A DNA stretch of 64,000 bases, taken from the NCBI GenBank assembly GCA_025526915.1, contig JAHLKH010000102.1:29276-93275 (forward strand), written 5' to 3'. Each line of letters begins with the position of its first letter. The stretch's first letter is position 1. The translations under genes were made by a program, and so were the position numbers. Shown in pieces: positions 9,876 to 60,667 of this stretch. This stretch comes from Entophlyctis helioformis. Its lineage: Eukaryota > Chytridiomycota > Chytridiomycetes > Chytridiales > Chytriomycetaceae. The notes beneath the pieces were generated by a model. The model did no database searches. It was not told where the DNA came from and saw nothing but the letters and a program-made list of their open reading frames with translations.

Positions 9876-11740
9876 CGGAGAGCCAGCGGTGGCGCCGAGG
9901 GCGGCGAGTCGGACGGGATCTGGCGAGTGCAGAGCGCAGAGCGCGACAGGGGGAGGGCCGTCTTGGCGAAGGCGACGCTGGAATGGTCAGCGAGGCGGTC
10001 TAAGTGATGGTCTGCATGATGGTCTGCGCGGTGGTCTGGGTGGTGGCAGCAGAGATGCAGGCCCGAGGGCGACACAGCCACGGGCAGGGGGCGGGGCAGG
10101 GACCGCGACAGCGCGACGGGCGGGCGTGGTGGATCCAGAGGGACAGCGACGACCATGCGAGCGTGTGACGGAGAGGGTGAGTGGGCCAGAGTGGGCCAGA
10201 GGGGGCCTGGCACCAAGAGACACGAGCGTGAGACAGGCGGTGAGACACGAGCGAGACACGAGAGAGAGGGCGGCGTGCGACAGCGCGAGACAGCGCGAGA
10301 CAGCGCGAGACAGCGCGAGACAGGCAGTGAGGCAGCGCAGGACACGGGTCAGTTGGCGTTGCGTGAGAGACGCGCGGCGAGAGACCGACACGGGCAGCAG
10401 CAGGCAGCAGGCAGCGTGGCAGGCAGGCAGGCAGCAAGAGACACGGACACACAGCAGCAAGAGACGCGCAACAAGAGACACGCAGACAGACAAGCAGACA
10501 GAGACCGGCAGCGAGGCATCCGCCATGCACTGAATGCGCTCAATGTGCCCTCAATGCCTGAATGCACTGCCTGTCCATGCTCTCAATCCATCCATCCATC
10601 CATTCATCCATCCATCCATCCGCTATGCATCCATCGATCCACCCTCGCATCCATCCATTGATCCACCCTCGCATCTGCCCTCGCATCCATCGATGCATCA
10701 GGTGATCAGTGCCATGCGGTCTCGATGCGGCTTGATGAGCCTGCGGCGCAGCATCCAAGGCGTGCTCACGGCGCGCGCAAGCCTTGCGCGGGATGCGCGG
10801 AGCCCGCCCTGTCCGCCCGTCTCGGCCAGCCAGCCAGGTGGTCTGGCGGTGGGTGGGCCAGATAAGCTGATGTGCGCGGGTGCGGGCGGACAAGCAGATG
10901 CGCAGATGAGCCTGCAGCGGAGTTTGCATGAAACGTCTCGTGACGGCCGGGCTGGCTGCCTGACTCAACCACCGATCCACCCACCACTCCGATCCACATC
11001 ACATCGCATCGCATCGCATCACACGACAGCCAGAAGGACAGCAGCAGTCTTGGGGGGCACTCCTGCAGAGCGGTGGCGTGGGCGGGATGGGGGTGTGGGA
11101 GTGGGTGCAAGGGAAGGCGTGGGACAGGGGAAGGCGGCTTGCTTACCGGCTGAGCAAGCGGTGCGTTGTTTGCGACAGGTGATTGCACGTCGATTGGCCC
11201 GACGCTGCAGAACAGGTGGAGATGAGGGAGCGGGACGGCTGCTGCTGCTGCTGCTGCTGCTGATGCTGCTGCTGATGCTGATGCTGACGGGACTGCGATG
11301 GGCGTCCTGTCCTTTGCGAGATACGATGGGGAGCGATGCGATGCGTGCTTGAACGGATGCCGCTGGTCCTGGCCAAGGCGTGAGCGAGCAAGTCACTGCG
11401 GATTGGTGAGTGGTGATCTGCAGCCAGGAATGTCCAAGGCGGGGTGAGTTTGATGCCTGGCCAGGAAAGGAGACAGCGGAATTGTGCGTCGGGCCGCAAG
11501 AGACACGAGCCCATCAGCCTGCAGCCCGTCTGTGCCTCGCCCCGTCTGTGCCTCGCCCCCGCCGCCATCTGGACAGCCAAATCGAATCTTCCATTGAGGA
11601 TCAAGGCCAGATGGATCTCAGAGGACGCTGCAGTCAGGAGCAGCGGGCAAGGCTGGAGAGGCATGGCCCGCCGCCGCTGCAAGCATAAAGTGTTCATCTC
11701 CCTATCACAGCCAAGATCCCGCGCTGACGCAACTTTCTGC
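9876..11740. other. Low-complexity intergenic tract without a recognised gene
   Basis: No frame in this 1.9-kb stretch resembles a known protein. It holds tandem repeats of a GCGAGACA-like unit around 10240-10325, CAGCAGGCAGGCAGG-type repeats to about 10440, ACAGACAG repeats, CCAT tetranucleotide repeats around 10582-10700, a CATCG repeat near 11003-11022 and a CTGCTG/GATGCTG run near 11238-11290. It probably contains the 5' region (and perhaps an upstream exon) of the PP1-targeting gene. The open frames here are compositionally repeat-driven and are not called. Confidence 0.5.
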
Positions 11741-47899: not shown

Positions 47900-48218
47900 T
47901 TGAACGCAGGATTCCTTTAAATAGAGGGCCTGCCCCCGCCCAGCTCAGTCACTCAGATACAATTTAGAAGTAAGTTGCCCAGCTCTGCTCTGCTCTGTTC
48001 TGCTCTGTTCTGCTCTGCTCTGCTCTGCTCTGCTCTGCTCTGCTCTGCTCTGCATCAGCGGGCTTCCCGTTGAGTCTGTCGCTGCCTGGAGCGCTGTGCA
48101 TCGAGTTTTGCTGTTGCTGGCTGTCCGGCGAGCACACGATGCTGCTCTGCCCCGCTCTGCCCCGCTCTGCCCCCACGAGTGCACCATATGCTGACCACCA
48201 TGCCGACGGTGCACAGTC
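47900..48218 (+). promoter_or_regulatory. Strong promoter and 5'-UTR intron of the secreted repeat protein
   Basis: A TATA-like TTTAAATA (47916-47923) lies about 25-30 bp before a CAGCTCAGTCACTCAG start-site-like stretch. A perfect donor GTAAGT at 47970 and an acceptor CAG at 48214-48216, two bases before the ATG context, suggest a 247-bp intron in the 5' UTR. That intron is filled by TCTGC pentanucleotide repeats (about 47980-48055). A TATA box is unusual among the genes of this window and fits high expression. Confidence 0.65.
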
Positions 48219-49208
48219 ATGAAGGTCGCATCCATCGTTCTTGCCCTCGCCGCTTCGGTCGTTGCCCTCCCCGCCTACATCGCCAAGCCCGCCCCCGAGC
48301 CCGAGACGCCCGCCGTCTACGGCGAGACCCCCGCTCCCGAGCCTGTCCCCGCCACCACCCCCTGCGCCGACAAGTACGGCAAGGAGACCCCCGCCCCCAA
48401 GCCCGAGCCCAGCCCCGCTGGCTACGGCAAGGACGCCCCTGCCCCCGCTGCCACCACCCCCGCTGGTGACAAGTACGGCAAGGAGACCCCTGCCCCCGAG
48501 CCCGAGACCCCCGCTGGCGGCTACTACGGCAAGGACTCTGAGGAGACCCCTGCCCCCAAGCCCGAGCCCGCTGGTGACAAGTACGGCAAGGACTCCAAGG
48601 AGACCCCCGCCCCTGAGCCCGAGACCCCCGCTGGCGGCTACTACGGCAAGGACTCCAAGGAGACCCCCGCTCCCGAGGCCGAGACCACCCCCGCCGACAA
48701 GTACGGCAAGGGTGCCGAGACTCCCGCCCCCAAGAAGAAGTGTGTCCCCAAGACCAAGGGCACCGGCAAGGAGACCCCCGCTCCTGAGCCCACCCCCGCT
48801 CCCTACGGCAAGGAGACTCCCGCTCCCGAGCCCGAGACCCCCGCTGGCGGCAAGTATGGCAAGGACGGCAAGGAGACCCCTGCCCCCGAGCCCGAGACCC
48901 CCGCTGGTGGCAAGTACGGCAAGGAGACTCCCGCCCCCGAGCCCGAGACTCCCTACGGCAAGGAGACCCCCGCTCCCGAGCCCAAGCCCGCCACCACCCC
49001 CTGCGACGGCAAGTACGGCAAGGAGACTCCCGCCCCCGAGCCCGAGACTCCCTACGGCAAGGAGACCCCCGCTCCCGAGCCCAAGCCCGCCACCACCCCC
49101 TGCGACGGCAAGTACGGCAAGGAGACCCCCGCCCCTGAGCCCACCCCTGCTGGCTACGGCGACGCCCCTGCCCCCCAGGTCACCAAGGTTGCCGCCGTCT
49201 ACTACTAG
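48219..49208 (+). CDS. Secreted Pro/Glu/Thr-rich repeat protein (cell wall or matrix)
   Basis: A single exon of 329 codons. A signal peptide (MKVASIVLALAASVVALPAY) is followed by about twenty repeats built from KYGKETPAPEPETPAG and variants (PAPKPEPAGDKYGKDSKET), with a few Cys residues (TTPCADKYGK, TTPCDGKYGK) and one KKKCVPKTKGTGK module, ending in VTKVAAVYY. No catalytic domain. Codon use is strikingly uniform (Pro CCC, Ala GCC, Glu GAG, Lys AAG, Thr ACC), unlike most neighbours, which together with the TATA box and 5' UTR intron implies an abundant product. A cell-wall or extracellular coat protein is inferred. The transposon inserted 59 bp past its stop. Confidence 0.88.
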   Translation: MKVASIVLALAASVVALPAYIAKPAPEPETPAVYGETPAPEPVPATTPCADKYGKETPAPKPEPSPAGYGKDAPAPAATTPAGDKYGKETPAPEPETPAGGYYGKDSEETPAPKPEPAGDKYGKDSKETPAPEPETPAGGYYGKDSKETPAPEAETTPADKYGKGAETPAPKKKCVPKTKGTGKETPAPEPTPAPYGKETPAPEPETPAGGKYGKDGKETPAPEPETPAGGKYGKETPAPEPETPYGKETPAPEPKPATTPCDGKYGKETPAPEPETPYGKETPAPEPKPATTPCDGKYGKETPAPEPTPAGYGDAPAPQVTKVAAVYY

Positions 49209-49259: not shown

Positions 49260-49267
49260 GAATTTCT
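49260..49267. repeat. 8-bp target-site duplication, left copy
   Basis: GAATTTCT directly abuts the left terminal inverted repeat and is repeated exactly at 58327-58334 next to the right one. Confidence 0.93.
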
Positions 49268-49290
49268 GGCCCGATATTCATACAATTACC
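49268..49290 (+). repeat. Left terminal inverted repeat
   Basis: 23 bp beginning GGCCCGATATTCATAC, matching the right end (58304-58326, inverted) at 19 of 23 positions. Confidence 0.9.
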
Positions 49291-49490
49291 AAGCGTTTTG
49301 GAATTAAATTCGACCCGAGAGGCGTCGAATGCAAACCCATACATCACGTGATTCAAGGCTCGCGTCAGCAACGAGCATGGACGACAGGCGGGCGAGGCAC
49401 ATCCAACAAGGGTCTCACCTTCTATTGAAGTTACCCGTTAGGTCGATCGGGAGGTCCCCCGATTCAAATAGTTGGTAGTGGTGGTGCAAG
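49291..49490 (-). ncRNA. Candidate Fanzor guide-RNA (fRNA/omega RNA) scaffold region
   Basis: In TnpB and Fanzor systems the guide RNA is encoded at and beyond the 3' end of the nuclease gene, ending at the element terminus, and its guide is the flanking host DNA. Here 200 bp separate the Fanzor stop (49491) from the left terminal repeat. The segment has a perfect 6-bp hairpin, ATCGGG/CCCGAT with a 6-nt loop (49446-49463). If the model holds, the RNA runs leftward on the minus strand through the terminal repeat and the guide begins AGAAATTCACATGG (complement of 49267 leftward). This is an inference from position; no conserved fRNA sequence could be compared. Confidence 0.4.
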
Positions 49491-52400
49491 TCAGAGTGCC
49501 AAAGGCTTGTCATGCGAGACAACACATGGCTGGCAACCAGGCTTGGGCACGACACTTGCACGCCGCTGGATGGCAGTATGCATTGCCTTGATGTCTGCAA
49601 GGTACTCTGGCGTGGCTGGATCGTCACTGGCTGGCGTGTGCGTCAAATAGAGCGGCCGGTGTCCAAAGAGCAGATGCCACAGTGCGACCATCCCGATGTT
49701 GGTGGCTCCAAGCACGTCTCGGTGGTAGACAGTCTCGCAGTCTGTGCACTCGTAGCGTCGCAGGTTGGTGCGGTTCTCGTATGGGATCCGCTGCTTGCAC
49801 TGCGGGCACATCTGGCTGGTCAGGTTCTCGTTGCAGCGGTAGATCTGTGTGTGTGTGTGTGGCATGATCGTGTGGTCAGTTGGTGCACAGATGGATGGAT
49901 GGATGGATGGACAGCGTGGCATCAGACGCACATAGGCATATCCAGACGACCGCAGATGCCTGATGAGAAACTTCTCAAACACAGCGTGCCGGCCACCTTG
50001 GCCTGTAAAGTCGATGCCAAATGCCCAGACAACGGGAATGTTGTCCTCTGTCGACTTTGATTGGTCGACAGGGAGGCCTTGAGACGCAGCAGATGCGCGC
50101 TTGCCAGTGGTTGATCCTGCCAGCTTCATGATGCCCTCAAGAGCGTTTCCGCGAATTGACATGCTGTTGCTGCGCATGGTGAACCGCTTGGCCTTGACCT
50201 TCTGTGGAATGCCATGTCATGCCATGCCGTCCAGTGTGATCAGCAGGCGATCAAGCAGCATGGCGGTCATGTCAATAGGCATCCAGAAACAGAGAAAACG
50301 TACCCGTGCATTCAGGAATGGCGAGCAGTACACACGGCAGCGCAGATCCCAAAAGGCTCTCTCGCCAGGCTTGAAGTTTGGATCAGCATGCTTTGCTGTC
50401 TTGAATGCAATGGCCTCGTGGACGTCGGTTGCCTTGGCATATCGATCAGCAAACCTGGCACAAGAGACAGGCACTGTGAGTTGATCTGGTCAAGAGTGTG
50501 TGTGGCAGAGTCATTGCATGCATACCACCGCTGAAGGCTGTGCTCAGCTCGTGCCATGCCAGAGGAGAGCACATAGTTGGCCTCGAGCGTGTATGTCTCC
50601 TCCTTGACATTGACCAGCATGCTGGACGCGCCATACAGGTACTGCTGGCCCCAATCAAGGCTGACAACGCGAACAGTCTGGTAGCCTTGGTCAGTGAACA
50701 GGTTGTTGGCTTTGAGGATGTTGCGCAGTCGCTGCGAGGCGTAAAAGTTGCGCAGGGCCTGTCGTGCCATGGCATGAGTGAGGAATGTGCAATGCAAGTG
50801 CACCAAAGTGCGAGTTTAGCATGCAAGTGGCTTACAGGATTGGGTGCTTTTGGCTTGGTGGCTGTGGATGGCATGTCAGTTGCTGCTGGTGCCAAGTGTG
50901 CATCATAATGGCACAGCAACTCACATTCGCCATCCATGTGATCATGCCCATCATTGGCCTCATCTGTTGAGAATGTGTGTGCGAGCGCGTGTGATAATGA
51001 AGTTACCTTATCCTACCAAATCCAACTCATCATCATCATCATCATCATCAGAATCATCATCATCAACAACCCACAGCTGCTGGCCTGAAGACACCAGATT
51101 GGAGCATGCAGAGCAAGGCGGCAGTCAGAATCAATGTGTGCACCAAAGCATCCAAGCACGCCACATACAGCAAGGTGACTCTGGACGGTCTGTGCGGCCA
51201 TTGAGAGCCAGTTGAAAGATGCTGTATCCATCCGTCCTGACGCTGCCTGTCAGGATTGCCTTGGCTGGTCTTGCTCGACGTGCCGCATCAATCGCAGCCT
51301 TGATATGCTCCTCGCACTCCTTGCCAACCAGACCCTGCTCGTCAGCCTCTTGCGTCGCCTTGGCTGTGGCCTTGGCAACCACGTCCATCTCATCTTTGGC
51401 TTGTGCAGGTGTCTGGAAGCGACCTTTCTCGGGGCGGAGGCCGGGAAGCAGGACGTCGAGAACACAGAGCTCTTGGCTTGCGCTGAATGCGTCTTGGATC
51501 TTGCTATTGGGCGTCTTAAGCTCCAAGTCTTCATCTTTGTAGTCTTGGACAAAAGTGCAGTGTCAGCATCAAAATCATACAAGCATGGCATAAACAAGTG
51601 CGACCTACTGAGTGCATCCAGAAGCTCCAGTCGCAATTTCTGCAAAGCATCACTCTGCTTGCCATTCTTGCGCTCATCCGTGGTCCCCATTACCGCCCAA
51701 AAGAGGGTGGCCTCGGTAATGAGGATGAACGGGTCGCGGCTCGCCGCCTCAGGGCACAACTTGATTGTTGTGCCAACAGCAAGCTTGCGCAGCTCGTAAA
51801 AGATCCTGATCTCTGAGAGTGACGCATTGCTCAAGATCGGCACAAGCACATGCAATGCTTGCGGGATTGTATCAAGACCGCCGTTGTCTGTGGCTGGAAG
51901 CGTGCTGGGTGTCGCGGCCACGGTGGTGGCCTTGTCCTTCCTGCCCCGTTGCCTCTTGGGTTTGGCACTGTTGGTGGCTGATGAAGAGGTGGACCGGTCG
52001 TGCTTGAGACCCAAGGCAGGAGGGGCAGCGTCTTGAGCAGCGTGTAGTGAGGCGTCCTCAGTGGCCGGTGGTGTGGTTGATGCTGGCCCTTTGCGCCTTT
52101 GTTTCTTGCGCGTCGGTGGGCTTGGTGTGGCGACCTCGGCAGCAGTGCGTTTGGCATCCTTGGCGGCGGCATGCTTGGCATCCTCAGTGGTCTTCTTAAT
52201 GATCCCGATCCACCTGTCAACATCCTTGGCAGACGCACCCTGCACCAGGCTGTGAGCTGCATCAACCAACAGCTTGGACTGGTTGGTCATAAAATGGGTG
52301 GCCAGCATGCGGCCAACGTCGCGTGCAAGGTTGTTGTAGATGTCGTGCCTTGCTTTTGCACAAAGGCTGCTATCAAGCCTGTAGGGCAGGACAGCCTCCA

Positions 52401-53373
52401 TAGTGTCCGTGTGCGCAGCGTCTGCCGTCGGTGCACTCTTCTGCATCAAGGCAGACAGATCTGCATTCGCCTGCTCCACAGCCGACTGGAACTCATTGGC
52501 CTTGGTTGTCGCTGTCTGCTGCATGCGTGCTGTCCGTGAGATTGACTTCCGTGTGCCTGCTTTCCACGTCGCTGCTTGCCGTGTGGTTTTCAGTGCTGCA
52601 GATGCCTGCTGTGTCGCGTCCACCTGCTCTGCCTTCCGTCTCCATGTCCGATGTATGATCAGCTGCATCACGGTGACAATCCAGCAGTGGACAGGGTACT
52701 TGATCGCATGCGGCTGGACCATCTTATCATCCGCCATGATGTATCCAATGTGATATAGCAGCATGTCCAAAGCACCCTCGCCACCAGACGTGCTGCTGGT
52801 GAGCGCCGTGAGCAGCTCATTTGCAGTTGGGACTGCTGGCGGCTGGGCGGCTGGCAATGATGCGCCGGCGCTGCTGGCTGCTGTTGCTGCTGTTGCTGTT
52901 GTTGCTGCCACAGTCTGCAATGCATTTGCAAAGGTGCAGATCTCAAGCACCGTGTCGCACTCGAGAGGCACCAAACTGCCATAGCGAGGAATCTCCGTGT
53001 CGCTGCTATGTGGTCCTGTGCCATACATCAACCATGCATTGATGCGCTTTTGGAGGATGCACCTGCCCGTTGTCTGCATTGTGCCCTTGCCCTCGCCGAG
53101 GTCGTCTGGGTTGATGTAGTAGTATGTTTTCACACTGCCACTAGTGACTTGCATCACGCAGTAGTCAAGTGGCAGTGGCGCATCTGGGCTGAGCTTGACA
53201 AGAACCTCGACTATCGCACCGATCAATGCGAGGACAGCACACAAGAGGCCGGCTGTGTAATCGTACACCGTCAGGAGGGCATCCTTTCTGACCGAAATGG
53301 CCGTCTGCTTGGCCAGTGGTGTCTTGGTATGGGTCCCGAAATACTTTGTATACTCTGGCTTGTTTGACAGCAT
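49491..53373 (-). CDS. Fanzor1 RNA-guided endonuclease (eukaryotic TnpB)
   Basis: Nine exons (53373-51609, 51543-51169, 51084-51017, 50958-50925, 50861-50836, 50758-50526, 50454-50304, 50201-49932, 49844-49491) give 1,091 residues from the ATG at 53373. The C-terminal half has the Fanzor/TnpB hallmarks: RuvC-I Asp in VRVVSLDWGQQYL (about D791), VVWAFGIDFTGQGGRHAV, the alternative-position Glu in YRCNENLTSQMCPQC (about E980), a C4 zinc finger (about C987, C990, C1007, C1010) and RuvC-III VYHRDVLGATNIG (about D1017). The published Fanzor pattern D-x(125-275)-[TS][TS]-xx-C4 zinc finger-RD is met. Upstream, LTGSVRTDGYSIFQLALN resembles the conserved Fanzor DGxS segment. The first ~580 residues are a Lys/Ala-rich extension with basic clusters (TRKKQRRKGP, KPKRQRGRKDK), probably nuclear-localising. 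It may be spliced to the nuclease upstream. Confidence 0.88.
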
Positions 53374-53380
53374 CTTCTGC

Positions 53381-56300
53381 TCATTTCACGAGTGCACCAG
53401 TCAGCCTCACAACACCAAGCATCCAGAGCAACATGGCAACCAAACCCCATACCGCCAGATCCACAATCATAACACGGCTGTTATGCTGTGCCTCATCCCC
53501 ATCCTCATCCTCATCCTTGCCCTTGCCCTTGCCCTTGCGCTTGCTCTTGCTCTTGCTCTTGCTCTTGCTCTTGCTCTTGCTGTTGCTGTTGATCTTGTCC
53601 TCATCCTTGTACTTTGGTGCTTTGCGATGATGCTGCACGTTTTTCCGACTGTCTGGTGTTTTGACTTTGAGGACCCCATTGACTGTCTGGACTGGCCCTG
53701 ATGTCACGCAGCAATTGCCCGCAACATCCAGATGTGTCGCCCATCTATCATGATATTCGTGTCTACCAGCAGAATCCATGTCAGCAAGCACAATCAGGGC
53801 TTGCAGCATGCCATCTGCCACTTACGTGCTTGTAGTTGTTGGAGATGGGGCCTTCCGGTGGCGTCGCCCTGACTTCTTCTTGTTTTTCTTGATGGTATTC
53901 TCGGTCGCAGCCTTCTCAGCTCGCTCGGCATTCTCCTTTGCATGTGCAGCCTCTGTCTCCTCAGAGAATTGGAATGGCGCCTGCCGTGGTTGGATGCAGC
54001 ATCAGGCATCCCTTCCTTGTGCACGCAACACAGTCACAATCACCAATGGTGCCCTGTAACCTACCGTCGTATTAGTGTCATCAAGTACACCAACGAGAAG
54101 TTTCTTGCGGTTTGCTTGTTCAGGGCGATCGTTGTCAGATGACTTGGGCAGCGGTGGAGGAGCACCAGCCTGTGGAGTAGAATGATCAGCAATCGTGCCA
54201 AATCAGTACAGGCACACACTGTCAGTGGAAGATGAGACGCACGGCAGCTTGCTCAATGACTTTCTGCAGCAGGGCAATGGCTGTTTGACGCTGATTGACG
54301 AGCATGATTGAATTGCCCTTGCTGATACATCGATTCTTGAGGCCATTCAAGTCATTCAGCAGGTTTGTGGCCTCATCATGGATAACTGCAAACGTGTCTG
54401 CCGGCACCACTCTTGTGCTGATCCGTCCGCGGTACTTGGTCTTCTTCTTGCCTGTATCTGCAATAGCACATTCAACAAAAACGGCACTGTGAGTGGATTG
54501 CATCAACCATTTCAATGCAAGCAGAATATACTTGGAGTGGCTGTATGCCGGAAGGGGGCATTTTGTGGATGCACAATCTCATCCAGCTGTGTCTTCATTC
54601 TTGGAGCAACAGTCTGTCCAGGAGCAATGGATCGAGTCAGTCACATTCAAGATCAACAACCATGTGTGGTGCAAGAGCAACGGCATGCATCCAAGCCATG
54701 CAGCAACTTACAAAAGCATGCCAAATCATCTGATCCGCCTTACTGAGCACCATGTAATCATCTGGCTCAATGGACTGCTCGCGCACAATCTGCAGCAACT
54801 GTGCACTAGCCGCCCTGCAGATGGCTGCGAGGATGTCACGGCTAGTGACTCCATCATACTTGCTCGCAAGGAGATCAACTGTTTGCTCTATGATGGCGTC
54901 CAATGCCACGTGGCAGCCATTGACCTCCTTGAATGCCACATCCAGCTGCCTGCTGGCAACAATGCCATTGGCAAGCTGTTTGACGCGATCGCTCGTCAAG
55001 TGGACAGGTGGGACACCAGTCTTGGCTTGCTGCTGCAGCTGCTGCGCAGTATGGATCAAACAGCAACCAGGCGATGAGCACCTGCACAATAACGAGATCG
55101 CAGCATCAGAAACAGGAAAGCCATGTCAGTTTTCCAGAAACACCACAGATGGCATACATGCATACTTGGCTCCAGCCGAGGCTGTCACATTGACATACAT
55201 GTGGTTGGCATTGCCTTGTTGAGGCCCAGATCTGTGCAAGGCATGCAATTGTGTCAATGCCAATATGTCCATAATATCCTTCAAGAATAGACTTGCCTCG
55301 CGACAATCGGGGCTGCAGTCATGCCAACTGGCGCTTTGGGCTCAATTCGGTCGACAAAGACTGAGAATGCGTTCTTGAACATTGGTATGAGGCTCTTGTC
55401 ATGGCTCTTGGCCAAGTCCTTGATGTACGCATCCCTGAGGTCATACATGAACACCTTGGCCTCTTCAGGAGTCTCGAGTTTTCTATAGAGCTCGGCCTCC
55501 TTGCCATCCAACTTGGCCGCCTTGCGATCGAACCACGCGTTAATGAACTTGGCAGCGGCCGCGATCCCTGAAGGCAATACAAGCAGAATCGCGCATGAAG
55601 ACAACAAATGGCATGTGAGTCATGACAGACAACAAAACAGGCGCAGCAACTCACCATGGCGATTGCGGCCAAAAAAGTCTGTATGAGAAAACGCTGCGAC
55701 ACCCTGACATGCACTGCGAAAATCCCGAACGCCCAATGCAGACGCAGTTGAGGCCATACCGCCATGGTTGTATGAGCGAGGCTGGTTAAACCGCCCATGC
55801 TGCAAGTGGGTCACAACGACACCACATTGACCAGCACAATGAGCAACCAGATCAGAGTCATTGGAGACAACAACGACTGGCTTGTCACTGTCACAAAATG
55901 GAGACTGTGAGCCATCAGTCACAGTAGAATGATCCAAGGCAATGTTACCTTGGCTCGCGAACATGGCGGGCAATGCATACATCAGCCTCATAATCACACC
56001 AGCATACCGTGCATCCCTTCTTTTTGCCAACAAGCTCGTTGAGGGCTGCAACAATGTGCTGTTTGTCGCTCTGCGTCAATGTGAAAAATCGGCCAAGAGC
56101 ATGGGTCTCCTTTCTGAGTGGCCAACAGCAGAAGATGGTTAGTAAGGCAGCCACACAGCAGAGAGTAGCAAACCTACTTGGTCATCAACCCAATCTGCTT
56201 GTATTCTTGACGGCGGAACGCATACCGCAGGACCTTGACCGCCGCATGCAGCATCTTGAGTGCGCGGTGTCGGTGCTCGATCTTGATTCCCGCGTCTCCG

Positions 56301-56494
56301 CAGCGACCGTCGACGTGGAATTTGATGGTGTGGCCGTCGCCGACCGACGCCATGAACAGCTCAATGGCCGGCTTGACGATGGCCTTCCAGGCATCCTTGG
56401 AGTCGGGCAAGCTGAACGATGCTGAGGCGATGAGCTGCGAGTAGAATACGCTTAGCATGTCAATGTGTAACATGCTGCTGATGAAGTCGTCTGT

Positions 56495-56544
<50 letters not shown>

Positions 56545-56691
56545 GTTTGCTGTTGCTGTTGTTGCTGGTCGCTGTTGCTGCAGTGTGCTGTGGACCACGT
56601 GCTGCACGACCTGGCTGAGTGCTGTGCCAGCAAGGTAGAGCCAGACGGCACAGCCTAGCTTGAGCATTCTCAAGTAGCCGCGGACCGTCAT
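53381..56691 (-). CDS. FEN1/XPG-like structure-specific nuclease of the transposon
   Basis: From ATG 56691 (MTVRGYLRMLK, like the MGIxGL start of FEN1) spliced pieces give LHIDMLSVFYSQLI, KFHVDGRCGDAG with EHRHRALKMLHAAVKV, CTVCWCDYEADVCIARHV, VVVVSNDSDLVAHCAGQCGV, and AAFSHTDFFGRNRHG. These match, in order, the FEN1 acidic residues of the N domain (ID, DG), the I domain (EAD), the (N/E)DSD motif and the G-x-DY-type helix-two-turn-helix. Downstream are helical segments, a GC-AG intron near 55290, a Lys-rich tail and (KS)n repeats; the frame can stop at 53381. The N-terminal exon border runs into a CAG/CAA repeat (56482-56550) and is uncertain. Roles in flap or hairpin cleavage during transposition are inference. 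Academ-type transposons are, as I recall, the known elements with an XPG-like nuclease. Confidence 0.72.
56482..56550. repeat. GCTGTT hexanucleotide repeat in nuclease gene
   Basis: About ten GCTGTT (AACAGC) units near the start of the FEN1-like gene. It reads as a Gln, Asn-Ser or Thr-Ala run depending on frame; it may be intronic, since AACAG endings offer many acceptors. Confidence 0.85.
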
Positions 56692-56963
56692 GTTGCGTGG
56701 TGCTGGTGCGTGGGATGGGGTGTGTGTGTGTGTGTGTGTTTGTTTGCGGGCAAACACGGCGCGTTCCAAAGTGGCGCGCTTTGATCAGATCTGATGGGCG
56801 GAGTTGAACTTTTCATTGCATGAAAACAGAGAGCGAGTCGATAGAGAGCGAGCATCCAGGCACTCGCCGCCCACTGTCCAACAGCCATAGAGGGAGCAGC
56901 GAGCACCAACAGCCAGGCGTTCAAGATGCGGTCGTGTGTTGCTGGCACAGTCATTGATGCCAC

Positions 56964-58184
56964 TCAGTGCGCAGCTTGACATGCACTGTGCAGCATCACT
57001 TTGCGTGTCATGAGCTGCATTGCAGTGAGCCTCTCTCCGAGTGTCGTCTTCTCAGTCAATGTCCCACTGCATCCATCAATCGGCCTGATATGCATCTGCA
57101 TTGTGACCCAGTGCGATGCAGTTGGTGTTGCCTGACTGGCCAGCTGGTCCGTGGACTGGTTGGCCGATGACGCACTGCCTGCATCGCCCCTCTGCTCTGG
57201 ATTGTCCTTGTCAACAAACACAGTGCATGCAAGACTGGGATCGTCAGGACCATCGCCATCATCATCGTTGTTGTGGTTGTTGAATGAATGGAGAGTGCTT
57301 GGTCTGTCTGGCCACTCCATGTGCTGCTCAGTGGATCGCATCCAAGATGCCATCGCACCAAGTGCAATGTGGCCAGACACGCCTGCCAGCACTCGCATCC
57401 TCCTCACCAATCTCGCCTGGATCAGTGTCGTCGAGTGTGCTGCTCGTCGAGTGTGCTGCCACTGCCGAGTTTGGCATCCAAGTCGGCATGCCAATCCAGC
57501 TATCCAGCAAGCAGTTCCTGCAGCCAACTCCCAAGGATCGATCCATTGAGCACGTCTCAGTGGCTGCTCATCTGCTGCTGCTGCATTCCATGTCGCAGTG
57601 AGAATGCACCAGGCAGCTCGGTCCTGCGATGCCAATGCTCTCGCTGTCCTCTTGAACAACAACCAGATCGCCCTGTTCACGGCCGTCTTGCCGACGTCCT
57701 TGTTGCTGTTTGGAGCCGTCAGACAAGCACACAGTCAGTGTCAAGACCACGCAGACACGGCCGTCAGACTGCTGTGCCGTCGTCGTCGATGGGCAATGGA
57801 GCATGCCTGGACAGACAGCGAGTCAACGCACCTGCTTGCCTGTCTGCAGCCTGCCTTCTGTCCGCCCGGCTTGTTGGGCATGCCTCTCAGACGGCCACGA
57901 CCACGCTTTTCTGGGACGGCCCGCTCGACGGCCTGCTGCATGGCATCTGGTACGGTCCGCCTCGTCGTCCCCCCGAAGGACTCGACCAAGGAGAGCTGGA
58001 CCATATCCGTGCAGATGGGTGAAAGGGTGGCGCGCTGTCTGCTAGGCCGTGTTGAAGGTGTGGTGGAAGTGGTGGTGCTGTCGCCTGCGTCGTTGTCGTT
58101 GGGCTCGTTGTTGCTTGTGTGCAGTTGGGCGGCAAGTGCAGCAGCGTCTGGATCTGGCATGGCGCGTTGCTGCTGTGCTCGCAT
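56964..58184 (-). CDS. AT-hook protein of the transposon, unrecognised
   Basis: An ATG at 58184 opens a frame with a Thr/Ser-rich start and EKRGRGRLRGMPNK, an AT-hook (GRGR core) for minor-groove binding. A GTGCGT donor (about 57831) can join it in phase to a second exon ending at 56964, which encodes NKDVGKTAVNRAIWLLFKRT, WIDPWELAAGTACW, MRVLAGVSGHIALGAMASWM, an Asp/Asn run and LTAMQLMTRKVMLHSAC. I do not recognise the second part. It is the gene next to the right terminus and could be a terminus-binding or regulatory protein; other frames in exon 2 (for example one with VWPHCTWCDGILDAIH) are also open, so more introns are possible. Confidence 0.5.
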
Positions 58185-58217
58185 CGCTCAGTGTCTGCAC
58201 CTTGCAACGGCTCTCTA

Positions 58218-58303
58218 GATCGACCAATCACAGCGATTCCACCAGGAGTTGACCAATCACAGCGATTCCACCAGGATTGACCAATCAGGAATATTCCACC
58301 AGG
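58218..58303. repeat. Subterminal 27-bp tandem repeats with CCAAT boxes
   Basis: Three successive units of GACCAATCACAGCGATTCCA + CCAGGA(G/T)T; the third is degenerate (AGGAATATT in place of ACAGCGATT). Each contains CCAAT and CCACCAGG. They lie just inside the right terminal repeat and just upstream of the AT-hook gene, so they could be transposase-binding sites or CCAAT-type promoter elements (as ATTGG on the minus strand). Confidence 0.9.
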
Positions 58304-58326
58304 GGTAATGGTATGAGAACCGGGCC
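58304..58326 (-). repeat. Right terminal inverted repeat
   Basis: Inverted match (19 of 23) to 49268-49290; ends in CGGGCC next to the target duplication. Confidence 0.9.
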
Positions 58327-58334
58327 GAATTTCT
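58327..58334. repeat. 8-bp target-site duplication, right copy
   Basis: GAATTTCT, identical to 49260-49267. Confidence 0.93.
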
Positions 58335-58699
58335 ATACTCTTTGCTGCGTTGTTTGGTACCAACCCTTGAAGTGAAGGCATTGATAGGCGATCCCACTAC
58401 GACGCTCGGAAGGCGACTGGCTCCTGATTCTCCCGTGTGGGCGGCATCTACACGCCATCAACGTCAACCTGCTCGACCCAGCCCATCCGTTTGGCGACGG
58501 TTCATGCTGCATCATGTGCGGCGAGGATCTCTGGGAAACACGCTGGGCATTGCATAGGTTGCGCTTGATTGCACAGAGGAGTGGAGTGTGGCTATTCGCA
58601 CAGCGCATTGGCAGCTGCAAGCCGCTGCTGTTGGCGAGGCGTGTTATGCCAGCACCTGGAACACAACGTCGCGTCGCGACTTACACAATCTTCACAAAA
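58335..58699. promoter_or_regulatory. 5' region of the FHA-RING gene
   Basis: 365 bp between the transposon and the ATG of the next gene. No gene is seen. The transposon's right end therefore became part of the upstream region of this gene, bringing CCAAT boxes within about 400-480 bp of its start codon. Confidence 0.45.
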
Positions 58700-60371
58700 A
58701 TGGCGTCTGTTGTGTCAGACCATCTCGTGCTTCGTTTGCTGCCTGCGGGGCCAACACCAAACTGCGAGCATGTCGAGCGGGTGCTGTATGAGCGCGTGTC
58801 TCTCAAGCTCGGACGGCAGGTCAAGTCACCAATGGAAAAAGCTGCCGCTGCCGCTGCCGCCGCATCCGCATCCGCAACTACTACTACTACTACTGCTGCT
58901 ACTGCGTTGACATTGGGCGGCAGACCGTCAACATCAAATGCCCAGCAGTCGCAACCGGCTTCTCCAGTCTCTCCCCTTGACCAGGCACGCGCCTTCTTCC
59001 TTGGTTCAGTTGCTGCCCAGCTAAAAGAACCCGCAACGTCTCCAACCTCGCCGACAACTGCCATTGGCGCCTCTCCAGCTGCAGCCTCGTCCACAGTTGC
59101 TGCAGGCTCTGATGACGCGACATCACCGCTGGCCAAGTCGCGTCCTGCTTTGCCTGAAAAACACGCCGAGCCCGTGTGGTTCAAAAGCAAGGTCGTCAGT
59201 CGCACACATGCAGAGATTTGGCTAAAGGACGGCCAGGTACAGCCATCTAGTCTATGCGACCAACTGTCGCCCCACCACTTACCGACAGTATCTGCTGCCC
59301 AATACCTTCGGTGCTGCTCGCTGCCTTTGTTCAGGTCTATCTCAAGGATATTGGCAGCTCTTCTGGCACGTTTCTCAACAAAATGCGGCTGAGTCCAGCA
59401 GGGAAACTCAGCAGACCGTACCCTATCCGCCAAGGGGATGTCATCCAGCTCGGTGTTGACTATCAAGGCAGAAGCGAAGGTATCCATCTGGTGCATCCCG
59501 TTTGTACTGGCATTGCTTGCTGACACTACTTTCTATTTGACTGACGCCGCCGACCGCCGCCATTCAAGACATTTACAAGGCCGTTGAAATGAAGGTTGAG
59601 ATTGAGCATCCGCAGACCATGACCACGATCAACAAGCGGCACAAGGCATCGCTGAGATTCCGTGCTGCGCTTCGGGCACTGCTTACGGCGACCAACCCAT
59701 ATTCTACAAGCCATGCAAGCACCGCGGCCGTCGCGAGTGCGAGTGCTACTGCTCTTTCAAAAACAGCGTCGAGCACCGCTTTGGGATCCGCAGGCGGCGA
59801 TGATTCGCACAAGCATCATGGCGGCTCGGTCGACTGCTGCATCTGCCTCTCGTCTATCGGCCCCTTCCAAGCGCTCTTTATCGCACCGTGCTCGCACTGC
59901 TTCCATTACAAATGCATTCGCCACGTGCTCAAGGAATCGCTCATGTTTCCGTGCCCCGTGTGCCGCCAAGTCGCCAATCTGGATGCAAGCGTCTCGATGG
60001 AGAGCCTGTTTGACATTGACGACAATGCCGTTCCGTACAGCAGCCTCGGCCGTCCCAAATCAGCCGCTGTGGACAATGACGATGATGATGATGAAGAGGA
60101 CGATGGCGAGGATGACGACGAAAATGCCGAGGCAGATGTGGAGCTCGATGATGATGCCGAGGAGCAAGGCGATCAGAGAAGCAGTATGGATGCCCATACT
60201 GGTGATGCTGGCAGGAATGCAAGCAGCATAGATCGTAGCATGCTGTGCAGAGCAAACCAAAATCAAGGCGACCATCTCTCGCAGGATAACCCGCATTTGT
60301 CTGGCATGATGGATGTCGACCACCAAGACGATGCATCGGATGGCATGTCTGTGTCTCAAACGCAAAAGTAG
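58700..60371 (+). CDS. DMA1: FHA-RING E3 ubiquitin ligase, Dma1/Dma2 (CHFR-related)
   Basis: Exons 58700-59236, 59335-59479 and 59569-60371 give 494 residues. The FHA domain is split by an Ala/Ser/Thr-rich insert: VVSDHLVLRLLPAG and ERVSLKLGRQVKSP before it; WFKSKVVSRTHAEIWLKDGQ, VYLKDIGSSSGTFLNKMRLS and YPIRQGDVIQLGVDY after it, with the phosphothreonine-binding S/RTH and SSGT/LN residues. The RING is CCICLSSIGPFQALFIAPCSHC then FHYKCI and FPCPVCRQVANLDASVSMES (C3H2C3 type). The FHA-then-RING order and the final VANLDASVS segment are those of fungal Dma1/Dma2, which ubiquitinate septin or spindle-checkpoint targets to delay mitotic exit. A very acidic stretch follows the RING. Confidence 0.95.
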
Positions 60372-60573: not shown

Positions 60574-60667
60574 GCTCCTGTAGCGTAGTGGTTTATCGCC
60601 TCGTACTTATATGAATCTCTGTTCATATGGAATGCGAAGGTCCCGAGTTCGATCCTCGGCAGGAGCA
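60574..60667 (+). tRNA. tRNA-Ile(UAU) with a 20-nt intron
   Basis: Acceptor stem GCTCCTG/CAGGAGC with discriminator A (60667), D arm GCG...CGC, anticodon stem TCGTA (60601-60605)/TGCGA (60633-60637), anticodon TAT (60608-60610), T arm CCGAG-TTCGATC-CTCGG. The intron (60612-60631) follows position 37, the canonical site, and contains TTCATAT, which can pair with the anticodon side (ATATGAA), as usual for tRNA introns. tRNA-Ile(UAU) carries an intron in many eukaryotes. The internal A box (TAGCGTAGTGG) and B box (GTTCGATCCTC) are present; TTTTGCCATTTTTGC, with T4-T5 runs, follows and would terminate RNA polymerase III. Confidence 0.92.

Follow-up and report, generated by a model that had tools for sequence, protein, structure and literature searches.

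The 64,000-nucleotide stretch of Entophlyctis helioformis DNA analyzed here (the window) is part of contig C102; the genome with which it was compared comprises 29.57 Mb in 482 contigs. It contains a DNA transposon of 9,059 bp, bounded by terminal inverted repeats (TIRs), which carries a spliced Fanzor1 gene preceded by a region that very probably encodes an XPG/FEN1-like nuclease. Together with its flanking target-site duplications (TSDs), the element occupies window positions 49260 to 58334. Its features are as follows (coordinates, strand, identity, and basis).

49260..49267, no strand: left TSD, GAATTTCT (sequence; 8-bp duplications in 22/38 element pairs)
49268..49290, plus: left TIR, 23 bp, GGCCCGATATTCATACAATTACC (19/23 identical to the right TIR)
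49268..49490, minus: putative omegaRNA 3' region, from the Fanzor stop to the left end (position by analogy with published Fanzor1)
49491..50758, minus: exons 17 to 20, Fanzor1 RuvC (VSLDWG), zinc finger, HRD, and TNB (splice sites kept in 4/4 full copies)
50836..51543, minus: exons 13 to 16, Fanzor1 WED-like part with TDG motif SVRTDGYSIFQL and an Asp-rich linker
51609..53376, minus: exon 12, 589 aa, conserved core, Fanzor N-terminal half by position (omega 0.36 to 0.45)
53453..54613, minus: exons 7 to 11, linker between the XPG-like and Fanzor parts (exon 11 kept only in close copies)
54712..56473, minus: exons 1 to 6, XPG/FEN1-like nuclease (acidic set; weak, recurrent XPG_I_2; omega 0.19 to 0.28)
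56474..56691, minus: upstream start MTVRGYLRML, of the XPG N-terminal MGxxG type (out of frame with exon 1 here)
56827..58326, no strand: right module, noncoding, common to subfamilies (dN/dS, identity bins)
58222..58304, no strand: three subterminal 26-nt repeats, GACCAATCACAGCGATTCCACCAGGA (two exact, one 77%)
58304..58326, minus: right TIR, 23 bp, reverse-complemented GGCCCGGTTCTCATACCATTACC (86 genome matches, reversed control 0)
58327..58334, no strand: right TSD, GAATTTCT (sequence)

A first-pass annotation of this DNA had proposed a complete Fanzor1-bearing transposon, and the ends bear this out: the TIRs agree at 19 of 23 positions, GAATTTCT is found on both sides, and the ends occur in many copies. 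The genome search with both ends that it had suggested, carried out with the 23-mer TIRs and up to three mismatches, gave 170 matches for the left end and 86 for the right; the same patterns read backwards gave none for either. A 73-bp left-end query matched through to base 1 at 39 of 40 scored places, and a 100-bp right-end query did so at 25 of 40, the other 15 matches beginning at base 2 to 5. Its expectation that other copies end at the same points holds for most of them. The exceptions are L010, L019, and L020 (3 of the 20 left-end loci compared), which have ∼48 bp outside the left end in common, and L043, which carries the same outer sequence. These ∼48 bp either prolong the left end or are a target that the copies have in common; since four copies share them, one subfamily may have an extended or different left end. 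The shared flank ends in CCGCCGGCAAAT, and its copies have the GGCCCGACATTC variant.

Target duplications were scored as present when at least 7 of 8 bases matched. Five of the eight element pairs read first have one: it is perfect in C102, C6, C138, and C66 (the last on the assumption that the final TIR base has mutated) and 7/8 in the C30 element, and C140, C49, and C5:189422 are without one. A further 30 pairs yielded 17, nine of them 8/8, which brings the pooled figure to 22 of 38, or about 20 of 36 independent pairs once apparent duplicates (C35/C436 and C18/C272) are taken into account; mismatched control pairs showed a duplication in 3 of 870 cases. C219 and C5:119707, which have longer or offset repeats, were scored as misses, and C141 seems to share one of its flanks with C176. 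Positions 5 to 7 are T-rich across 21 pooled duplications. C89:1-2655 matches window positions 57171 to 59826 at 98.6% identity, crossing the right junction into the flank, so a second copy of the region (a haplotig or an overlapping contig) also holds the element; an empty insertion site was not found, this second copy being occupied. The locus is thereby confirmed as a complete Fanzor1-bearing TIR DNA transposon with defined ends.

Inspection of the three frames by eye, together with a script, resolved twenty exons on the minus strand, from 56473 to 49491, which join into a single 1,848-aa open frame. The introns are 58 to 102 nt long and begin with GT or GC and end with AG. Splice dinucleotides are kept at 18 of the 19 introns in the four full copies aligned with the window (L041, L042, L043, and L044), bar one acceptor in L043; intron 14 lies in an Asp-codon repeat and its donor is absent from all four, so the exon 14/15 boundary is uncertain.

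Exons 13 to 20 hold, in addition to a TDG motif, the sequences VSLDWG, LTSQMC..C...C..C, and HRD. The published Fanzor1 motif is D-X(125,275)-[TS][TS]XX-C4 zinc finger-X(5,50)-RD (PMC3627910). It is present as D1547-X192-TS-xx-C4-HRD, with TS at 1740, and the Pfam family Cas12f1-like_TNB matched above its cut-off (E 8.9e-11); the spliced gene with Fanzor1 hallmarks described in the first pass is thus upheld. NCBIfam guided_TnpB matched below its cut-off (E 1e-7). The TDG motif, SVRTDGYSIFQL in exon 13, is a feature of the Fanzor1 WED domain (PMC10711439) and also occurs in L042, L044, L045, L047, L060, and L062. A search of the PDB with 812 aa gave no match at an E value of ≤1 and so linked the Fanzor part to no solved Fanzor; the best match of a 285-aa piece was a designed RNA-guided nuclease (E 0.73). 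Among proteins, the Fanzor region had no match at an E value of ≤0.01 in 7,999 candidates and the whole 1,848-aa chain none at ≤0.001 among 7,996 scored, and a search of IMG/VR gave no relative of the Fanzor piece. The frame from RuvC to HRD is open in 10 of 23 distinct copies, the window's included, a tally in which L013 was counted as open despite one changed acceptor. ARAGORN calls a tRNA-Asp at 49558-49641 (plus strand), antisense to the last Fanzor exon; it is absent from the Rfam listing and is likely false.

The upstream part is very probably XPG/FEN1-like, an assignment made from motifs and sub-threshold Pfam hits. Seven acidic residues (D5, D55, E141, D143, D164, D166, and D224) are invariant in six of six aligned sequences, an alignment that left out L047 and L062. 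Their order and spacing resemble the FEN1/XPG set, to whose residues we take them to be equivalent, and the E-x-D and D-S-D spacing was compared with that in two host proteins. The N-terminal start reads MTVRG or MTFVG in the subfamily of the window copy and in those related to it and is of the MGxxG type in distant families (MGIAG in L060, MGIIG in L061, MGVIG in L045, and MGVDG in L062). At an E value of ≤1, Pfam XPG_I_2 was matched by five of six members and then by seven of seven (best E 1.9e-4, 21.5 bits); in another scan, one of four proteins did not match it. The PDB search gave no meaningful match for this part and the IMG/VR search no relative, and a profile of it found seven proteins among 4,384 candidates, all from Entophlyctis helioformis.

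Selection was assessed as omega, the ratio of nonsynonymous to synonymous substitution (dN/dS), by simple Nei-Gojobori counting in five copies aligned with MAFFT. The XPG exons are under purifying selection, with omega values of 0.19 to 0.28 in frame versus 0.73 to 1.55 in the other two frames (four copies); in the comparisons with L043 and L044, dS is 1.14 to 1.21 and omega 0.25 to 0.26, the other frames giving 0.92 to 1.55. For the exon 12 core, omega is 0.36 to 0.45 over the copies and 0.37 to 0.45 against L043/L044. The RuvC/TNB exons differ from those of L043/L044 by a dS of only ∼0.21, with omega at 0.60 to 0.71. In the window copy the XPG start is out of frame across a CAG/CAA repeat; the start is in frame in 7 of 10 near copies and out of frame in three, the window's among them. 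The repeat (56491-56580) lies in the XPG reading frame, and its length differs between copies.

We infer that the XPG-like and Fanzor parts form one fused polypeptide. When the window's joins were applied to other copies, with exons 14 and 15 read as one, L042 kept its frame open across every exon and L043 from exon 2 to the end, which supports a single frame joining the two parts; L043 differs from the window by a dS of 0.72 to 1.14 over exons 1 to 12. The first stop in L041 falls inside exon 12, beyond the exon 11/12 junction, and the exon 1 to 6 joins agree by eye with the NCBI protein P0001, a relative. The alternative is that two neighboring genes are present, the XPG-like one ending near exon 10 and a separate Fanzor1 beginning near 53373 (MLSNKPEY). 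We judge this the less probable arrangement, though one to be taken seriously: a TAA lies inside the exon-10 donor and an early ATG in exon 12, the protein records for the XPG part are only 242 to 520 aa long, and the 7,996 scored proteins among which the chain went unmatched were of ∼1,016 aa or more. Two further findings tell against the fusion. A counterpart of exon 11 was found only in L042 among eight loci searched, and in L044 the exon 11/12 junction loses frame and a stop occurs early in exon 12, although the alignment is poor there. Two genes fit less well with the frame crossing introns 10 and 11 in L041, L042, and L043, with the retention of GT..AG at both introns in all four full copies, or with the replacement of the exon-12 ATG by Leu in L061 and L045.

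The element belongs to a large family. Among the matches listed, which are part of 244 XPG and 337 RuvC matches from searches that each scored a portion of their candidates, there are at least 86 XPG, 142 core, and 115 RuvC loci; the first 156 aa of exon 12 gave 150 genome matches, with 150 of 196 candidates scored. Pairing of 111 left ends (102 listed of the 170, plus places found with the longer query) with 82 of the 86 right ends defined 42 TIR-bounded intervals, of which at least 35 contain the core, 31 RuvC, 21 XPG, and 18 all three. These counts include haplotig-like duplicates, since two right-end loci among the 19 compared duplicate others along 1.5 kb (L026/L030 and L031/L034). At ∼8 kb each, the 170 ends would amount to some 4 to 5% of the genome. 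Short TIR-bounded forms of 1.0 to 2.2 kb with 7/8 or 8/8 duplications were also seen (C35:164492-165480, C436:7860-8911, and C199:20580-22748), those on C35 and C436 looking like one site on two haplotigs.

Ten of the 42 intervals span 13.9 to 15.9 kb. Those at C37:109958-124764, C5:189422-205272, and C297:448-16378 each contain an additional ∼6 kb whose position among the same parts varies, which suggests nested insertions; the extra DNA is probably another element. A longer autonomous form with its own transposase is not supported by this arrangement, although the 8/8 duplications of C12 (13.9 kb) and C151 (14.3 kb) count towards it.

Identity to L043 and L044 is stepped: 83 to 98% right of 56.83 kb (measured in 250-bp bins), 50 to 83% in the core, and 79 to 95% left of ∼51.1 kb. 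The XPG parts of L060, L061, and L062 are only ∼29 to 42% identical to that of the window, and RuvC pieces on the same contigs (C130:44192, C98:80887, and C7:262073) are 83 to 92% identical. Because of this stepped identity and the pairing of divergent XPG with similar RuvC sequences, the ends and the Fanzor catalytic half must have been exchanged among old core lineages, and the elements are mosaics of shared young ends and old, diverse cores. The right-hand 1.5 kb is without coding signal; a third protein in the 56.9- to 58.2-kb region was considered and rejected, the own frames of its two open reading frames (ORFs) having dN/dS values of 0.63 to 1.18 against L041 to L044. The large copy number and the mosaic structure, like the XPG/FEN1-like nuclease apparently in frame upstream, go beyond the first-pass annotation. 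Its view of the element as young and possibly active survives in part: the two nearest full copies are 94 to 95% identical to the window over ∼7 kb and the catalytic half of the window's Fanzor is open, but the XPG start is out of frame and the 10 open copies are a minority of the 23.

The stop of the Fanzor gene is 223 bp in from the left end, at the place occupied by the guide RNA in published Fanzor1 systems, and this region (49268-49490) is conserved in 14 aligned copies, with a mean column identity of 78%. In published Fanzor1 elements, the TIR and TSD fall within the guide-RNA scaffold (PMC10711439); by analogy, the guide would therefore start beyond GAATTTCT, and the putative guide would read outward on the minus strand from 49259. 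The earlier claim that the guide RNA is predictable thus stands for its position but not for its fold: covariation was found at 3 of 62 pairs, and the fold (z score −0.31) is no better than that of shuffled sequences.

The reading that we favor, with modest confidence, is that the window holds a full-length member of a large Entophlyctis helioformis TIR transposon family which is inserted by a DDE transposase acting in trans or hidden in the element and maintained by its XPG-Fanzor protein. A DDE-type transposase would make the 8-bp staggered insertion; it may be supplied in trans, a resident KDZ enzyme being one candidate, or may lie unrecognized in the large core. Once the element has excised, RNA from its left end and flank would direct Fanzor to recut the empty donor site, and the element would then be copied back from the sister, with the XPG-like domain trimming flaps or resolving repair intermediates. 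The job of the encoded protein would thus be maintenance, not insertion. Copy-back after a TnpB break has been described, and the same has been raised for Fanzor (PMC10432273).

Several observations, the poor guide-RNA fold among them, weigh against this reading. A transposase was not identified for the element: when 15 ORFs and the two halves of the chain were scanned against Pfam, no transposase family and no TnpA or serine recombinase came up, in line with the earlier remark that no DDE transposase is visible. The Fanzor catalytic exons have omega values of 0.57 to 0.82 (four copies), weak purifying selection at best; of the three frames, theirs has the lowest omega in L041 and L044, but another does in L042 and L043, and the RuvC frame is broken before HRD in 13 of the 23 distinct copies. 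As to the XPG part, all XPG_I_2 scores lie below the Pfam cut-off of 24.2 bits, P0005 has N at the place of D55, and one member also matches the implausible family Ribosomal_L20 (E 0.00093); hhalign against two host XPG-family pieces gave a probability of 0.3%, versus 0.4% for the control, with very shallow alignments. Finally, of the 142 core loci, at least 67 have XPG, 81 RuvC, and 41 both within 6 kb among the matches listed.

Genome-wide transposase searches covered three superfamilies, KDZ, MULE, and hAT. The hAT dimerization domain gave no genome-wide match, nor did its control; the 8-bp TSD length fits hAT. MULE had no genome-wide match (its control matched in three genomes), and MuDR was rejected on this ground and because a 9-bp TSD would be expected. 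KDZ matched on three contigs, at C334:6404-7253, C271:9823-10062, and C396:222-449 (best E 1.1e-15), and a resident KDZ transposase could itself mobilize the family, in trans or from KDZ elements with the same left end. Family ends are present on two of these contigs. On C396 an exact left TIR (10280-10302) lies ∼9.8 kb from the KDZ match and faces it, and positions 200 to 1300 of that contig resemble neither the compared family loci nor any part of the chain; on C334 a right end (query bases 5 to 100, 99%) lies ∼8 kb from the match. The C334 element, however, runs away from the KDZ gene, to judge by its orientation, and no right TIR within three mismatches was found on C334, C271, or C396. 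We regard this explanation as possible but unlikely.

It is less likely again that the XPG-Fanzor protein itself mobilizes the element without a DDE enzyme, spreading it through RNA-guided breaks and recombination that XPG processes. No coding region is more constrained than the XPG part, which is found again in many divergent families, no transposase was recognized within the element, and MULE is without a match genome-wide. Against this, TIRs together with 8-bp TSDs are a signature of DDE transposition, a KDZ transposase is present in the genome, and only the three superfamilies named were searched for genome-wide. Slightly more doubtful still is the proposal that these elements form a eukaryotic superfamily that has conserved a single product, a fused XPG-Fanzor protein, and is moved by it with no DDE transposase. 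Here RNA would guide the cutting of the target or donor site, the XPG domain would process flaps or junctions, and conversion between elements, driven by Fanzor, would have left old, diverse cores with young ends in common. Least probable is a member of the Academ lineage AcademX that captured a Fanzor: the AcademX nuclease is an XPG, but no Academ transposase was seen here. AcademX is indeed a nuclease-encoding lineage, but its TSDs are 3 to 4 bp (PMC10045372), and the 8-bp duplications disfavor it.

Outside the element, a repeat-rich ORF with a signal-like start and KETPAPEPETPAGG units (48195-49208, plus strand) ends ∼50 bp before the left end, and a tRNA (60574-60667, plus strand; Rfam E 3.3e-8) with an odd ARAGORN anticodon, perhaps intron bearing, lies ∼2.2 kb from the insertion.

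Among known systems, the Fanzor1 elements of Bao and Jurka (2013; PMC3627910) are alike in placing Fanzor1 within TIR elements, some without their own transposase, in their C-terminal motif, and in the occasional presence of another nuclease beside Fanzor (GIY-YIG in PGv-1); ESvi-1B has an 8-bp TSD. They differ from the present family, where the partner is XPG/FEN1-like and apparently in one frame and where the copy number is much larger, and the term "XPG" is absent from the main text of that paper. The Fanzor of another chytrid, Spizellomyces punctatus (PMC10432273; SPu-1 in PMC3627910), is likewise of the Fanzor1 type, with TIRs and no transposase between the repeats as described there; its element has a 633-aa single ORF, ∼2.1 kb, and a putative TA TSD, in contrast to ∼1.85 kaa, 9 kb, and 8 bp here. 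The IS200/IS605 and IS607 TnpB systems share an RNA-guided nuclease with RuvC and TNB and a guide RNA from the element end; unlike them, the present element is eukaryotic and spliced, has TIRs and 8-bp TSDs, and showed no TnpA or serine recombinase in the Pfam scans. AcademX and AcademH are likewise DNA transposons with a nuclease or helicase that processes DNA; they have their own DDE transposase, and we know of no Fanzor in them. Their TSDs are 3 to 4 and 9 to 10 bp, respectively (PMC10045372). A literature search found no paper combining Fanzor, transposon, and XPG among the matches listed, and none naming Entophlyctis helioformis together with Fanzor. A Fanzor that apparently shares one conserved frame with an XPG/FEN1-like nuclease, in a large mosaic family with no recognized transposase, is of a kind not met in the literature searched.

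The benefit of Fanzor to transposons has yet to be settled and is discussed in PMC10432273. Entophlyctis helioformis brings together, in one fungus, many copies whose ends and TSDs are defined, subfamilies that have diverged, and a second nuclease, conserved and apparently in frame. Predictions about the guide, the target motif, the partner enzyme, and copy-back become directly testable in this organism, and a natural fusion of XPG with Fanzor, if true, would add a new architecture to those of RNA-guided nucleases.

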